A stretch of DNA of 64,000 nt, from contig CP112999.1 in assembly GCA_026625165.1 (NCBI GenBank), positions 62,001-126,000 on the forward strand. Direction: 5' to 3'. The notes beneath the pieces were generated by a model. It was not told where the DNA came from and ran no database searches. It saw only the letters and a program-made list of their open reading frames with translations. This DNA comes from Methanoregula sp. Lineage in GTDB: Archaea > Halobacteriota > Methanomicrobia > Methanomicrobiales > Methanospirillaceae. Shown piece after piece: positions 3,836-20,329 of the stretch (position 1 is the first letter of the stretch; each line of letters starts with the position of its first letter). A program made the translations under genes and the position numbers.

Positions 3836-4510
3836 ATGTTACACAAAGACAGGTTGTCATCTGGTATGAAAACGAAAAAACAGATCAATGCTCTCCTGTA
3901 TGCGATTGAAGAGTATCCGGATATCGGCAGGACCAAGTTGATGAAGTTTGTTTTTTTTGTTGACCTCGTCATGTATAACCGCAGGGGGGAAACGCTCCTT
4001 CAGGACGAATATGTCCGCATGCCTCACGGCCCGGTTCCTCCTTTAGCATACACACTGACCTCGTGTTCAAATGATTTCTTCAATGTAAGACAAGTCCTCG
4101 TCAGTTATCAAAACAACCGGTACCGTGAATACCGTTTCACCCCTTTGAAAAAAGCTGACATGTCGCTGTTCGATCATGAACAGAAAACTATCTTTGCCAA
4201 GGTTCTTGATCTCCTGAAGAAAAATACCGCAGTCGCGATCAGTACACTTACCCACCAGTTGGATCTGTGGAAAACAGTGGAAAACGGATACAAAATTCCT
4301 CTCGATCTCTTCAAACTGGAAGAACGGGAATTGACCGAACAGAAGGCAGAACCAGCCGTAATGAATGAAACTATGTGCGATATAGAATTTGACGATCAGA
4401 TGCAGGTTGCCGGTGTGTATGAAGTGCCGGTTACAGCTCTTTTAAGTGAGCGGTCCCTTGCAAAGGAGTGGCTCAAACCCGAGGAGGACAAAGCTTGGGA
4501 TTATTTGTAA
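3836..4510 (+). CDS. Panacea-domain (DUF4065) antitoxin with VapB-like tail
   Basis: A 224-residue protein. Residues about 10-150 form the Panacea (formerly DUF4065/SocA-like) domain, with KLMKFVFFVDL and a following MPHGPVPP segment typical of the family. Panacea proteins are antitoxins that neutralise many unrelated toxins. The last 16 residues (AKEWLKPEEDKAWDYL) are not part of Panacea: they match the toxin-binding tail of the small antitoxin at 20144-20329. The gene overlaps the downstream MazF-like toxin by 16 bp, so the two are translated together. A second ATG at 3863 (MKTKKQ) could be the real start. Expected role: neutralise the partner toxin. Confidence 0.82.
   Translation: MLHKDRLSSGMKTKKQINALLYAIEEYPDIGRTKLMKFVFFVDLVMYNRRGETLLQDEYVRMPHGPVPPLAYTLTSCSNDFFNVRQVLVSYQNNRYREYRFTPLKKADMSLFDHEQKTIFAKVLDLLKKNTAVAISTLTHQLDLWKTVENGYKIPLDLFKLEERELTEQKAEPAVMNETMCDIEFDDQMQVAGVYEVPVTALLSERSLAKEWLKPEEDKAWDYL
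4481..4487 (+). promoter_or_regulatory. Ribosome binding site of the toxin inside the antitoxin tail
   Basis: GAGGAGG lies 7 nt upstream of TTG 4495 and encodes the Glu-Glu of the antitoxin's PEED motif. The homologous pair at 20144-20173 has the same sequence and the same spacing before its ATG. This supports TTG 4495 over the upstream GTG 4468 as toxin start. Confidence 0.75.
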
Positions 4511-4833
4511 AAGGACAGGTTGTAAAAGTCCTTTTTCCCTTTTCTGATCTCAGTGGTTCCAAAAAAAGACCGGGTTTTGTTGTGGCAAACCTGCATGGGG
4601 ATGATACACTCATCTGCCAGATTACAAGCCAGAATGACGAGCATGATCCCTATGCAATTTCCTTAAACTCCTCGGATTTTGAAGACGGCAGTTTACGATA
4701 TTCGAGTTTCATCCGTCCCAGCAAACTGTTCACAGCAGATTCCACGATTATCTCCGATGTAATTGGGTATGTGAACCAGACAAAAATGGATGAAGTCGAA
4801 CAATCGATTATCCGGATTTTGCAATCGAAATAG
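4495..4833 (+). CDS. MazF/PemK-like endoribonuclease toxin
   Basis: A 112-residue protein beginning at TTG 4495 (LGLFVKGQVV). The start KGxVVxVxFPFSD, then KKRPGFVVA and the central CQITS, are the conserved blocks of the MazF/PemK fold, whose members cleave mRNA in the cytoplasm. It aligns well over its whole length with the toxin at 19827-20159, including KRPxxV, CQITS, FxxGSLR and RPxxLFTADS. It overlaps the Panacea antitoxin by 16 bp. A longer reading from GTG 4468 is possible, but the paralogue and the ribosome binding site favour 4495. Confidence 0.82.
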   Translation: MGLFVKGQVVKVLFPFSDLSGSKKRPGFVVANLHGDDTLICQITSQNDEHDPYAISLNSSDFEDGSLRYSSFIRPSKLFTADSTIISDVIGYVNQTKMDEVEQSIIRILQSK

Positions 4834-5310: not shown

Positions 5311-6819
5311 ATGCGCCTCGCCTCCGAACTCAAATCAAAGATCGACTCCCTCTGGGACAAGTTCTGGAGCGGCGGCCTCTCTAACCCGCTCCAGTCCATC
5401 GAGCAGATGTCCTATCTCATCTTTATGAACCGGCTTGAGGAGATGGATACCTTCGAGCAAAAAAAGGCACAGGCAAACAAACAATCCTACAAATCCATCT
5501 TTGAAGGGCAGGAGGATTGCCGCTGGTCCCACTGGAAACATTACCCGGCAGACAAGATGCTCGTCCATGTCCGGGACTTGGCCTTTCCCTTTATCAAGAA
5601 TATTCATGACGGGGAAAAGACGCTCTTTGCCCAGCACATGAAAGATGCCGTCTTCATGATCCCCAAACCTTCGCTCCTGCAGGAAGCCGTCGCCATCATC
5701 GATGACCTCAAGATATCGGCACAGAACCGGGACACACAGGGCGACATCTATGAATACCTGCTCTCGCAGCTCTCGACCGCAGGGAAGAACGGGCAGTTCC
5801 GTACGCCCCGGCATATCATCCGGATGATGGTTGAGCTCGTGGACCCGGACATCAATGACCGGATCTGCGATCCTGCCTGCGGTACAGCCGGGTTCCTGGT
5901 CAACTCATACGAGCACATCCTCAGGAAATACACAAGCAAAGACAAGATCGAAGAAGATCCCGAAGGAGGATATCATAACCTTCTCGGCGATAAGATCACC
6001 GACCCGAAACACTGGGACAAGCTCTGGACTGACACGTTCTATGGCTATGATTTTGATACTACCATGGTCAGGATCTCGCTGATGAACATGGTGCTCCACG
6101 GGATCAAAGCACCACGGGTCGAGCAGAAAGACACGCTTTCCAAGGGATTCAGGGAATCGGAGTGGTATACCATCGTGCTTGCCAATCCCCCGTTCAAAGG
6201 CAGCATTGACAAGAGCGATATCAACGACGCCCTCACCATCCAGACCACCAAGACCGAACTGCTCTTTGTCGAACGGATGATGCACCTCCTCCAGATTGGC
6301 GGGAAGTGCGGGGTCATCGTGCCGGATGGCGTGCTGTTCGGCAGCTCCAATGCCCATAAGAAACTCAGGCAGATCCTGCTGGAAAAGTGCCAGCTCGAAG
6401 GGATTGTTTCGATGCCATCCGGTGTGTTCAAGCCGTATGCCGGTGTCTCAACCGCAGTCCTGATCTTTACCAAAGGCGGGAACACTGATCGCGTCTGGTT
6501 CTATGACATGGATGCTGACGGGTACTCTCTGGATGACAAACGGACTTTCATTGATGGGAAAGGGGATATCCCGAATATCATCCAGCACTACCGCAACAGA
6601 AAGAAAGAGAATCCCACAGACCGGAAGGATAAATGTTTCTTTGTGCCACTCAGTGAGATCAAGGAAAACGGATACGATCTCTCCATATCCCGGTATAAGG
6701 AAATTGAGTACGAAGAAGTCCAGTACGAGAAGCCGGAAGTAATTATTCAGAAGATTGAGACGCTTGAGAACGAGATACAGAAAGGGTTGAATGATCTCAA
6801 ATCATTGATTAAAAAATAA
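5311..6819 (+). CDS. hsdM: Type I restriction-modification DNA methyltransferase subunit
   Basis: A 502-residue HsdM of normal length. The N-terminal helical domain (about 1-140) includes LWDKFWSGGL and IFMNRLEEMD. The catalytic domain has GQFRTPRHI near residue 160, the S-adenosylmethionine-binding motif DPACGTAGF at about 187-195 and the target-adenine motif NPPF at about 292-295, all intact. It should methylate N6 of adenine, but only with an HsdS subunit to supply sequence specificity. No intact hsdS or hsdR is present here. The next gene downstream is an Xre regulator, and only hsdS tail relics lie upstream. The gene therefore looks orphaned unless its partners are elsewhere. Confidence 0.93.
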   Translation: MRLASELKSKIDSLWDKFWSGGLSNPLQSIEQMSYLIFMNRLEEMDTFEQKKAQANKQSYKSIFEGQEDCRWSHWKHYPADKMLVHVRDLAFPFIKNIHDGEKTLFAQHMKDAVFMIPKPSLLQEAVAIIDDLKISAQNRDTQGDIYEYLLSQLSTAGKNGQFRTPRHIIRMMVELVDPDINDRICDPACGTAGFLVNSYEHILRKYTSKDKIEEDPEGGYHNLLGDKITDPKHWDKLWTDTFYGYDFDTTMVRISLMNMVLHGIKAPRVEQKDTLSKGFRESEWYTIVLANPPFKGSIDKSDINDALTIQTTKTELLFVERMMHLLQIGGKCGVIVPDGVLFGSSNAHKKLRQILLEKCQLEGIVSMPSGVFKPYAGVSTAVLIFTKGGNTDRVWFYDMDADGYSLDDKRTFIDGKGDIPNIIQHYRNRKKENPTDRKDKCFFVPLSEIKENGYDLSISRYKEIEYEEVQYEKPEVIIQKIETLENEIQKGLNDLKSLIKK

Positions 6820-7129: not shown

Positions 7130-8155
7130 ATGTCAATAGGTGAACGTATCAAATCGGCCAGGATTAATGCCGGGTTATCGCAACAGGTGCTTGCCGAAAA
7201 GATGGGACTTTCCAAAATGGCGATCTCAAAATATGAGAACGGGACGGTTACTCCGAATTCAACCGCCCTTATCGGCTTGTCGGATGCTCTCAATGTCAGG
7301 GTGGAGTTCTTCTTCCGTCCGCGAGCCCCCCGGCTCTCAAAACCGGATTACCGTTGCCGGAAAGCTCTGTCGCCAAAGGACGAGACGAAAATCCTCGGCA
7401 AGACCAGCGACTGGCTTGAGCGGTACCTTACTATCGAGCAGATCACCGGCTCGGAAAAGCCACTCACCCTTCCGGATGAAGATCGCTGCCGGGTCTCTTC
7501 GTTGGATGACATCGAGGAAGTGTCGATGAACATCCGGAATGCATGGGATCTCGGCCTTGATCCTATCGAGAACCTGATGGACGTTCTGGAGCAGCATGGG
7601 ATAAAGGTCGGTGTCATTGATGCGCCGGTGAAATTCGATGCTCTCACGATGTGGTATAACAATGTGCGCCCGCTCATCATTGTCAATATGAGGTTCTCCG
7701 GAGACCGCCAGCGTCTTAGCCTTGCGCATGAACTCGGGCATTTGCTCCTGAAGCTTGAAGAAGGCATCGATTCTGAAGAAGCTGCGTTTCATTTTGCCGG
7801 TGCGTTCCTGATTCCAAAACCGATGGCGATCATGGAGCTCGGGCCGAAACGAAAGATGCTGGACTTCCGGGAACTATACGTGATCAAACATAAGTACGGG
7901 ATAAGCATGGGGGCGTTGATTTACCGCGCAAAGAACCTTCACATCATCTCAGATGCGGCAGCAAACCGGCACTGGGTCGAGATGCGGTTGCATAAATGGC
8001 ACAAAACGGAACCGGGTGCACAAATCGAACCGGAGGTCCCGACTCATCTCGAACTCCTCCTGCTCCGGGCCCTGAGTGAACACAAGATATCGGAGTCCAG
8101 GTTTAATGAATTGAGAGACGAACACACTCCGATACTTGCCGTACCATGCCAGTGA
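7130..8155 (+). CDS. Xre-HTH / ImmA-IrrE zinc peptidase regulator (antitoxin)
   Basis: A 341-residue protein. Residues about 4-60 form an Xre/Cro helix-turn-helix (IKSARINAGLSQQVLAEKMGLS region). Residues about 150-260 are an ImmA/IrrE (COG2856, M78) metallopeptidase with the zinc motif HELGH at 200-204. Such Xre-COG2856 fusions are known as antitoxins or as anti-repressors that cleave regulators. Its neighbour is a PIN-domain gene, an arrangement predicted as a toxin-antitoxin system in comparative surveys. The upstream palindrome suggests it represses its own operon. ATG 7130 is chosen because the HTH begins directly after it. Confidence 0.88.
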   Translation: MSIGERIKSARINAGLSQQVLAEKMGLSKMAISKYENGTVTPNSTALIGLSDALNVRVEFFFRPRAPRLSKPDYRCRKALSPKDETKILGKTSDWLERYLTIEQITGSEKPLTLPDEDRCRVSSLDDIEEVSMNIRNAWDLGLDPIENLMDVLEQHGIKVGVIDAPVKFDALTMWYNNVRPLIIVNMRFSGDRQRLSLAHELGHLLLKLEEGIDSEEAAFHFAGAFLIPKPMAIMELGPKRKMLDFRELYVIKHKYGISMGALIYRAKNLHIISDAAANRHWVEMRLHKWHKTEPGAQIEPEVPTHLELLLLRALSEHKISESRFNELRDEHTPILAVPCQ

Positions 8156-8162
8156 TGTAAGA

Positions 8163-8666
8163 ATGAAGAGCAGAAGGCCGTGTTGCATCGATACCAATAT
8201 CTTCTTCGATTTTATTGCAGGGGATATTTTCGATCAACTGTTTCTTCTGCCATTCAGCTTCCAGACCTCCGAGTTTATTCCCAAAGAGATTTCCGGATCA
8301 TTCTCCCGTCAACAGTTGAAGGATCTGGGAGTGAATCTTCTGATCCTTACAGATGCGGAAGTAAAAGAATTACATGCAATCAAACAACAGCACATCGAGC
8401 TCTCTATTGACGATGTCTCAGTTTTTTACCTCAGTCGGAAACATAACATCATGATCCTTTCCAGTGACGAACTATTGCGAAATCTCGCCGCTGAAAGCGG
8501 GATCGAATACCATGGTACTCTCTGGCTGCTGGAAGAACTCATTAAAAATGATCTTCTCTCGTCGCAGGAAGCAGCTGATGCATTGCGAAAGATGCTCGGA
8601 AAGAAACGCTGGCTGCCAATAGCAGAATGCGAGAAACTAATCAATATGTGGGAATCAGAAAAATAG
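8163..8666 (+). CDS. PIN-domain putative toxin RNase
   Basis: 167 residues from ATG 8163 (MKSRRPCCIDTN). An ATG at 8136 would overlap the preceding gene by 20 bp and add a tail not needed by the fold. The PIN signature is clear: an early CIDTNIFFDF strand with the first catalytic Asp, an acidic Glu in EFIPKEI, a central DDVSVFYLS and ILSSDELLRNLA near the end. PIN proteins are Mg-dependent endoribonucleases. Paired with an Xre-ImmA/IrrE gene 8 bp upstream, it is probably the toxin or effector of the couple. Confidence 0.82.
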   Translation: MKSRRPCCIDTNIFFDFIAGDIFDQLFLLPFSFQTSEFIPKEISGSFSRQQLKDLGVNLLILTDAEVKELHAIKQQHIELSIDDVSVFYLSRKHNIMILSSDELLRNLAAESGIEYHGTLWLLEELIKNDLLSSQEAADALRKMLGKKRWLPIAECEKLINMWESEK

Positions 8667-19826: not shown

Positions 19827-20159
19827 TCAATCTTTGACGATTCTGATTATCCGGTCAATGACTGCATTCAATGCCGGGTCTTTCAGGTGTCCTGTACGGT
19901 ACTGGATAATCCGGCTGTCTGCGGTGAACAACCGGTTCGGCCGGACATTGCTGTCCTGCCTGAGCGATCCTTCACTGAAATCCTCTTCACCTATTGAGAT
20001 GCTGTACTGATCCATCACCTGCCGGCTGGTTATCTGGCAGAGGATCATATCATCACCTTCGAGCGGAGCAATCACAAGAGCCGGCCGTTTCTTTGCTGCG
20101 CTGAGATTTGAGAAGGGAAAGAGGACAACGACGACGTCGCCTTTTACAAATTCGCCCAT
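19827..20159 (-). CDS. MazF/PemK-like endoribonuclease toxin
   Basis: 110 residues from ATG 20159. Conserved MazF-type blocks: FVKGDVVVVLFPFSNL, KKRPALVIAP, ILCQITSR and LFTADS. It is paralogous to the toxin at 4495-4833. GAGGAGG at 20167-20173 lies 7 nt upstream and inside the antitoxin gene, which it overlaps by 16 bp. Expected to cleave mRNA when freed from the antitoxin. Confidence 0.88.
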   Translation of the reverse strand: MGEFVKGDVVVVLFPFSNLSAAKKRPALVIAPLEGDDMILCQITSRQVMDQYSISIGEEDFSEGSLRQDSNVRPNRLFTADSRIIQYRTGHLKDPALNAVIDRIIRIVKD

Positions 20160-20329
20160 GCTTCGTCCTCCTCAGGGCGCAGCCAATCTTTCTTTAAGGA
20201 GGACTCGCTTGCGTACGCGGTTTCGTTCGCGGTCTTCTTTTGTACTGACCTGATGAAGTTAAGGATCTCACGATAGCGCTGTCGTGGTACCTGGTGCAGT
20301 TCCCTGATAATCTGTTCCTCAACTTTCAT
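20144..20329 (-). CDS. Small VapB/DUF2281-like antitoxin of the MazF-like toxin
   Basis: 61 residues. The N-terminal helix (MKVEEQIIRELHQVP, then YREILNFIRSVQ) resembles DUF2281/VapB-type antitoxins. The tail LKKDWLRPEEDEAWANL corresponds to the last residues of the Panacea protein ending at 4510. It overlaps its toxin by 16 bp, and its PEED codons supply the toxin's ribosome binding site. The tail is the probable toxin-binding segment. Confidence 0.82.
   Translation of the reverse strand: MKVEEQIIRELHQVPRQRYREILNFIRSVQKKTANETAYASESSLKKDWLRPEEDEAWANL

Follow-up and report, generated by a model that had tools for sequence, protein, structure and literature searches.

A C-terminal tail shared by a Panacea antitoxin and small antitoxins of one MazF subfamily, a candidate toxin-neutralizing element

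Two overlapping antitoxin–MazF pairs in an archaeal genome

The window, the whole stretch of 64,000 nucleotides of Methanoregula sp. DNA analyzed here (contig CP112999.1, positions 62,001 to 126,000), carries near its start a two-gene locus (3836–4833) in which an antitoxin gene, panA, overlaps a PemK/MazF gene. The panA ORF (3836–4510, + strand) encodes 224 residues, and an in-frame ATG at 3866 (MKTKKQIN...) is an alternative start used by most homologues. Its Panacea domain (Pfam SocA_Panacea, PF13274, E 8e-14; residues 35–146, 3938–4273, + strand) scores 52.9 bits against a curated cut-off of 25.7, which, together with the overlapping toxin gene, places the product among the Panacea antitoxins. 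Behind the domain lie a diverged linker, predicted to be disordered (residues 163–203, 4322–4444, + strand), and a C-terminal tail, SERSLAKEWLKPEEDKAWDYL (residues 204–224, 4445–4507, + strand), which we propose as the MazF-binding and neutralizing element from its conservation and its presence on unrelated antitoxins. The toxin gene encodes 112 residues (4495–4833, + strand; Pfam PF02452, E 1.7e-9) and, with its start corrected to TTG 4495, overlaps panA by 16 nt. An AlphaFold model of PanA is mostly folded at high confidence over about residues 8–160 and falls mostly below 50 pLDDT over residues 163–224; since the model was built from only 11 sequences, ‘disordered’ here means ‘not predicted to fold alone’. 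Neither a PDB search with PanA nor a Foldseek search with its model gave a significant match.

A second pair lies on the reverse strand. Its antitoxin (20144–20329, − strand) has 61 residues, consisting of a DUF2281-like helix and a tail, SESSLKKDWLRPEEDEAWANL (20147–20209, − strand), and its gene overlaps by 16 nt that of a 110-residue MazF/PemK-family toxin (19827–20159, − strand; Pfam E 6e-9). The DUF2281 assignment is a likeness below the Pfam cut-off of 26.5 bits, both for the protein itself (15.2 bits, E 0.033) and for its relatives (24.2–25.0 bits). The original prediction had called this antitoxin ‘VapB-like’, a misleading label because the partner is a MazF rather than a PIN/VapC toxin.

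Both toxins exceed the cut-off of the PemK_toxin profile (38.3 and 36.5 bits against 23.1). The model of the PanA-linked toxin (pLDDT 86) has MazF structures as its top Foldseek matches (E ~1e-7, TM ~0.8), including M. tuberculosis MazF-mt3 and the B. subtilis MazE–MazF complex, and a profile search with the toxin also matches the MazEF complex of K. pneumoniae (7bye, E 0.003). Arg25 and Thr44 of the toxin align with the catalytic Arg28 and Thr51 of K. pneumoniae MazF (7bye; PMC8086154); in the toxin alignment (A5), Thr44 is invariant and Arg25 is kept in at least 90% of sequences. Thus, the PanA-linked toxin is a MazF by Pfam profile, fold, and conserved catalytic Arg and Thr, and RNase activity is predicted. 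A weak match to SifA (E 0.009–0.04) was taken as chance because the toxin has the MazF fold. The two window toxins had been described as paralogues; they do belong to one subfamily, being 53% identical, but they are not recent duplicates, because each has closer relatives in other genomes.

The panA pair adjoins hsdM, a type I methylase gene (5311–6819), and no hsdR-sized ORF was seen over the window’s initial 14 kb. A tie to type I restriction was considered and dropped, as an HsdM search gave no match near the copies of the pair in three other genomes (G164, G499, and G490). An overlapping pair at 7130–8666 in the same cluster, an HTH–ImmA/IrrE-type protein (PADLOC RmrA, E 8e-53) and an apparent PIN-like protein, is likely another toxin–antitoxin pair.

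Conservation and distribution of the shared tail

The C-termini of the two window antitoxins share 14 of 21 residues, or 12 of 17 once the last four are dropped. We compared all C-terminal 21-mers of the window’s 309 ORFs of at least 60 residues; among the resulting 47,586 pairs, PanA and the 61-residue antitoxin reach a BLOSUM62 score of 78, and the runner-up scores 28. The likeness reported originally is therefore real and was, if anything, understated: the 12 residues first matched are too few, since the match extends both upstream and downstream to 21 in all. When five orthologous PanAs are compared pairwise, identity averages 0.585 in the Panacea domain, drops to 0.26 in the linker (residues 173–201), and rises to 0.77 over residues 202–224 and 0.83 over residues 204–218, which lie upstream of the toxin overlap. 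The last tail residues (W..L) overlap the toxin start and are therefore not independent evidence of conservation at the protein level. Across 55 loci, Trp212, Leu208, and Glu216/217 are invariant and Ser204/Glu205 nearly so, and the codons at invariant tail residues differ synonymously, as expected under protein-level selection.

The tail is widespread on antitoxins of other kinds. A PanA scan of a collection of 84,980 species, each represented by a single genome, picked up the tail by itself in small antitoxins of Deltaproteobacteria, Clostridia, Bacteroidetes, Elusimicrobia, Lokiarchaeota, and candidate phyla; almost every one is encoded immediately 5′ of a MazF gene, with an identical or almost identical overlap. 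A toxin profile search over 199 genomes of the window’s order added many more tail loci. In intact loci the tail always precedes one MazF subfamily, here called MazF-A, and it is present in 55 of 55 MazF-A loci examined with an intact antitoxin. Its carriers fall into at least four N-terminal types, of which those of the small antitoxins have Pfam support just below the cut-offs: DUF2281-like helices, which are the most common; AbrB/MazE-like domains (L009, L012, L060, L061, L070, L074, L089, and L103); AF2212-like domains (L007, L076, L082, L084, and L085, with L082 typed through its similarity to L007 only); and Panacea domains (the window, L002, L040, L064, and L083). In addition, a ribbon-helix-helix (RHH) antitoxin encoded on a Thermococcus plasmid bears a diverged version of the tail, AEDWDRPEDEWW. 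The AF2212-type version of the module also occurs on one viral contig (L082); the toxin gave no match in phage records.

Among Panacea proteins, the tail follows the toxin. We tabulated 42 distinct Panacea ORFs found by searching 393 genomes from the phylum and 199 from the order; the tail is present in all five paired with MazF-A and in none of the 37 with other partners. The contrast is clearest inside a single Panacea lineage. L040, with a Panacea core 70% identical to that of the window, has a MazF-A partner and the tail, and seven ORFs paired with a divergent PemK toxin lack it, their cores being 44–48% identical to the window’s. Three of these (L024–L026) pair with a PemK toxin of at best 21% identity over 43 residues and end in another conserved stretch, exemplified by EDTVPDEMLSLQFETM in relatives. 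Together with L113–L121, they form a sister Panacea group in Methanomicrobiales, whose own conserved tail (EDTVPDEMLSLQFETM) is possibly the neutralizing element for the divergent PemK toxin. The five Panacea–tail cases all come from one archaeal family and may represent one acquisition.

Several further observations concern relatives and remnants of these loci. Panacea proteins of 330–380 residues (L041, L047, L048, L141, and similar ones) have a C-terminal extension of ~180 residues, and several are followed by a ‘FHDSN..GYYF’ protein, a candidate for a further type of toxin within the same Panacea lineage. At L016 (G000:C1:291295-294600), the best-scoring PemK toxin of its genome lies 3′ of a 194-residue protein that has neither a Pfam match nor the tail and shows a vague likeness to a diverged Panacea domain (a GPYSPDL stretch). 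In the Methanomicrobiales MAG locus L002 (the same locus as L088, G490), the Panacea–tail antitoxin is intact and MazF is frameshifted near its start, which may reflect decay of the toxin or an error in assembly. Decayed copies with only the PanA linker and tail left, as ORFs of 48–61 residues, occur at L142 and L143 (G164) and L145 (G482); at L142 a truncated toxin also survives beside the remnant, and the G482 copy adjoins an hsdM 88% identical to the window’s.

A proposed neutralization mechanism, its alternatives, and its origin

These comparisons suggest a division of labor within PanA. The tail is common to at least four other kinds of antitoxin that guard the same kind of toxin, which suggests that it, and not the Panacea domain, silences the toxin; its predicted disorder and its conservation behind a diverged linker likewise support a role as the toxin-binding element. 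That role, already put forward in the original prediction, is well supported by comparison, in that the tail tracks the subfamily of the toxin regardless of the N-terminal domain. Tails of MazF-binding antitoxins are typically disordered before binding (PMC11394972; PMC9585320), and in K. pneumoniae MazEF the toxin is contacted by the long C-terminal portion of MazE, which displaces the β1–β2 linker of MazF and fills part of the RNA-binding site (PMC8086154). By analogy with MazE tails, the PanA tail peptide would fold onto the MazF dimer and block its RNA-binding site, so that the MazF-type RNase would be kept inactive by the disordered C-terminal peptide of about residues 204–224. The Panacea domain would then not be the main neutralizer and could serve as a scaffold, dimerizer, or sensor that controls the tail. 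We infer from these sequence comparisons that the tail binds and neutralizes MazF and that Panacea acts as scaffold or sensor; the panA pair is thus probably a type II module whose tail inhibits MazF under Panacea control and whose tail–toxin cassette has been swapped among N-terminal domains. Such a cassette would have been joined to DUF2281-like, AbrB/MazE, AF2212-like, RHH, and Panacea domains.

The tail DNA has a second role that bears on how its conservation is read. In both window loci a GAGGAGG motif in the tail codons lies 7 nt before the toxin start codon, at 4481–4487 (+ strand) ahead of the TTG, where it is the probable toxin Shine–Dalgarno (SD) site, and, as an SD-like site, at 20167–20173 (− strand) ahead of the ATG. 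Of 48 distinct loci, 41 have an SD-like core, and the final Trp codon of the tail includes the TG of the toxin start codon, which falls within the conserved A-W codons. Hence, E-E-D and A-W are constrained at the nucleic-acid level in addition to the protein level, and part of the conservation and co-travel of the tail could reflect physical linkage. At the extreme, the tail would be kept mainly as initiation DNA for the toxin (SD, start codon, and toxin N-terminus), linked to it and devoid of antitoxin function. We regard this as very improbable: the most conserved upstream residues (S-E..L..D-W) lie outside the SD and start, Trp212 is invariant in 55 of 55 loci, the varied N-terminal domains all join the tail in one reading frame, and the seven loci that lack the SD core still keep the acidic run EED with the codons GAAGAAGAT. 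Since EED persists without the SD and S-E..L..D-W sits outside the initiation region, protein-level selection is the better account.

Neutralization could also reside in the folded part of PanA. Some Panacea domains neutralize directly, for example in a Bartonella pair (Ernits et al. 2023, PMC10440598), and two PanA pairs whose toxins were predicted to be MazF-like have been validated (Kurata et al. 2022, PMC8832971). A folded Panacea surface would then inhibit MazF, and the tail would be a relic or an accessory contributing affinity, a degradation signal, or a dimer contact. This is improbable for PanA, as the same MazF subfamily has the tail on antitoxins without Panacea, close Panacea relatives with other toxins lack it, and the tail is more conserved than the Panacea domain. 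Somewhat less improbable, though still unlikely, is a bipartite arrangement in which the toxin is contacted by the tail as well as by Panacea and neutralization requires the two together. Peptides of MazE-mt3 alone are weak inhibitors of MazF-mt3 compared with the full-length antitoxin (PMC11394972), and an isolated Phd-C element required a stabilizing tag (PMC10440598); nevertheless, MazF-A is also served by tails on at least four other types of N-terminal domain, and therefore no Panacea-specific contact can be general. ‘Linear neutralization’ through a MazF-binding element is consequently our best reading of the PanA tail: it is a discrete element that goes with the type of toxin and that also occurs on antitoxins lacking Panacea.

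Recombination appears to have created the combinations of tail and N-terminal domain. Because the tail codons contain the SD site and start of the toxin gene, tail and toxin are physically one cassette, and exchange of the N-terminal part would be easy. The antitoxin and toxin genes are out of frame with each other except in the frameshifted L002, where MazF is brought into the antitoxin’s frame behind its stop. Somewhat short of an even chance, in our judgment, is the more specific scenario that a single upstream recombination suffices to place the compact tail–SD–start–MazF cassette under a new controller, here a Panacea domain that would act as a sensor (e.g., of phage) and not as a neutralizer, the same lineage driving other toxins through other C-terminal extensions. 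The donor is another matter. The suggestion that the tail was swapped in from a DUF2281-like antitoxin finds no support here: at least four N-terminal types carry it, and forcing the Panacea-linked toxins together with the window’s DUF2281-linked ones costs 28 log-likelihood units (AU p 0.048). In the toxin tree, the Panacea-linked sequences sit close to those linked to AF2212 and do not join the large group linked to DUF2281, though support is modest; neither a single Panacea origin (p 0.17) nor a union of Panacea-linked toxins with same-family AF2212-linked ones (p 0.21) is rejected. The groups for these AU tests were partly picked after the tree was seen, and with about 109 alignment columns the donor of the Panacea tail cannot be named.

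Relation to known toxin–antitoxin systems

The original prediction took Panacea to neutralize toxins through its own domain. That mode is known, but it is only half of the picture because Ernits et al. 2023 showed that Panacea can either neutralize directly or be accessory to Phd-C, PAD1, or ZBD elements, termed ‘linear neutralization’; a proposal that Panacea senses a trigger is found there too (PMC10440598). Whether Panacea is a neutralizer or only a sensor is an open question in the field, for which the loci described here offer a natural swap experiment: close Panacea relatives keep the core and change C-terminal extension and toxin together, and because antitoxins with and without Panacea share a short, defined tail within one toxin subfamily, the question can be tested directly. 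The gene overlap also provides a simple explanation for the joint movement of MazF tails and toxins between antitoxin scaffolds.

The pair resembles MazEF, PemIK, and Kis–Kid systems (E. coli; B. subtilis, 4me7; K. pneumoniae, 7bye) in its MazF fold with catalytic Arg and Thr, in having the antitoxin gene first, and in an antitoxin whose N-terminal domain is followed by a C-terminal stretch that is predicted to be disordered and would bind the toxin. It differs in that the N-terminal domain is Panacea rather than AbrB, and in a tail sequence without detectable relation to that of E. coli MazE. A resemblance of the tail to the MazE C-terminus (DWGEPKDKEVW) was examined with a profile of 40 tails and rejected as homology, as 3180 of the 5000 shuffled sequences score at least as high as MazE itself; the tail’s Pro and acidic run E-E-D are missing from six MazE relatives. 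Similarly, a PDB search with the tail profile matched no solved structure, yielding a chance match only (E 1.3).

DUF2281-type antitoxins, whose reported partners are PIN/VapC toxins (PMC12654330, PMC4963859), share with the 61-residue antitoxin a weak DUF2281-like N-terminal helix, whereas its partner is a MazF and its tail is MazF-specific. PemK has been listed among the partners of Panacea, and two pairs with MazF-like toxins have been validated (Kurata et al. 2022, PMC8832971). These pairs, from P. moraviensis and B. ruminantium, are alike in combining a Panacea antitoxin with a MazF-like RNase and in neutralizing in E. coli; their toxins differ in having no NCBI CDD hit (PMC8832971). No description of a MazF-specific tail on a Panacea protein was found in the main texts of the mostly open-access papers searched. 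The closest parallels are the PanA Phd-C/Doc, PAD1/toxSAS, and MqsA-ZBD/MqsR pairs, which likewise join a Panacea core to an element that also occurs on non-Panacea antitoxins of the same toxin type (Ernits et al. 2023); relative to the PanAs described in the sections consulted, the window’s PanA is distinguished by a C-terminal MazF peptide of ~21 residues whose DNA doubles as the ribosome-binding site and start of the toxin gene (PMC10440598).
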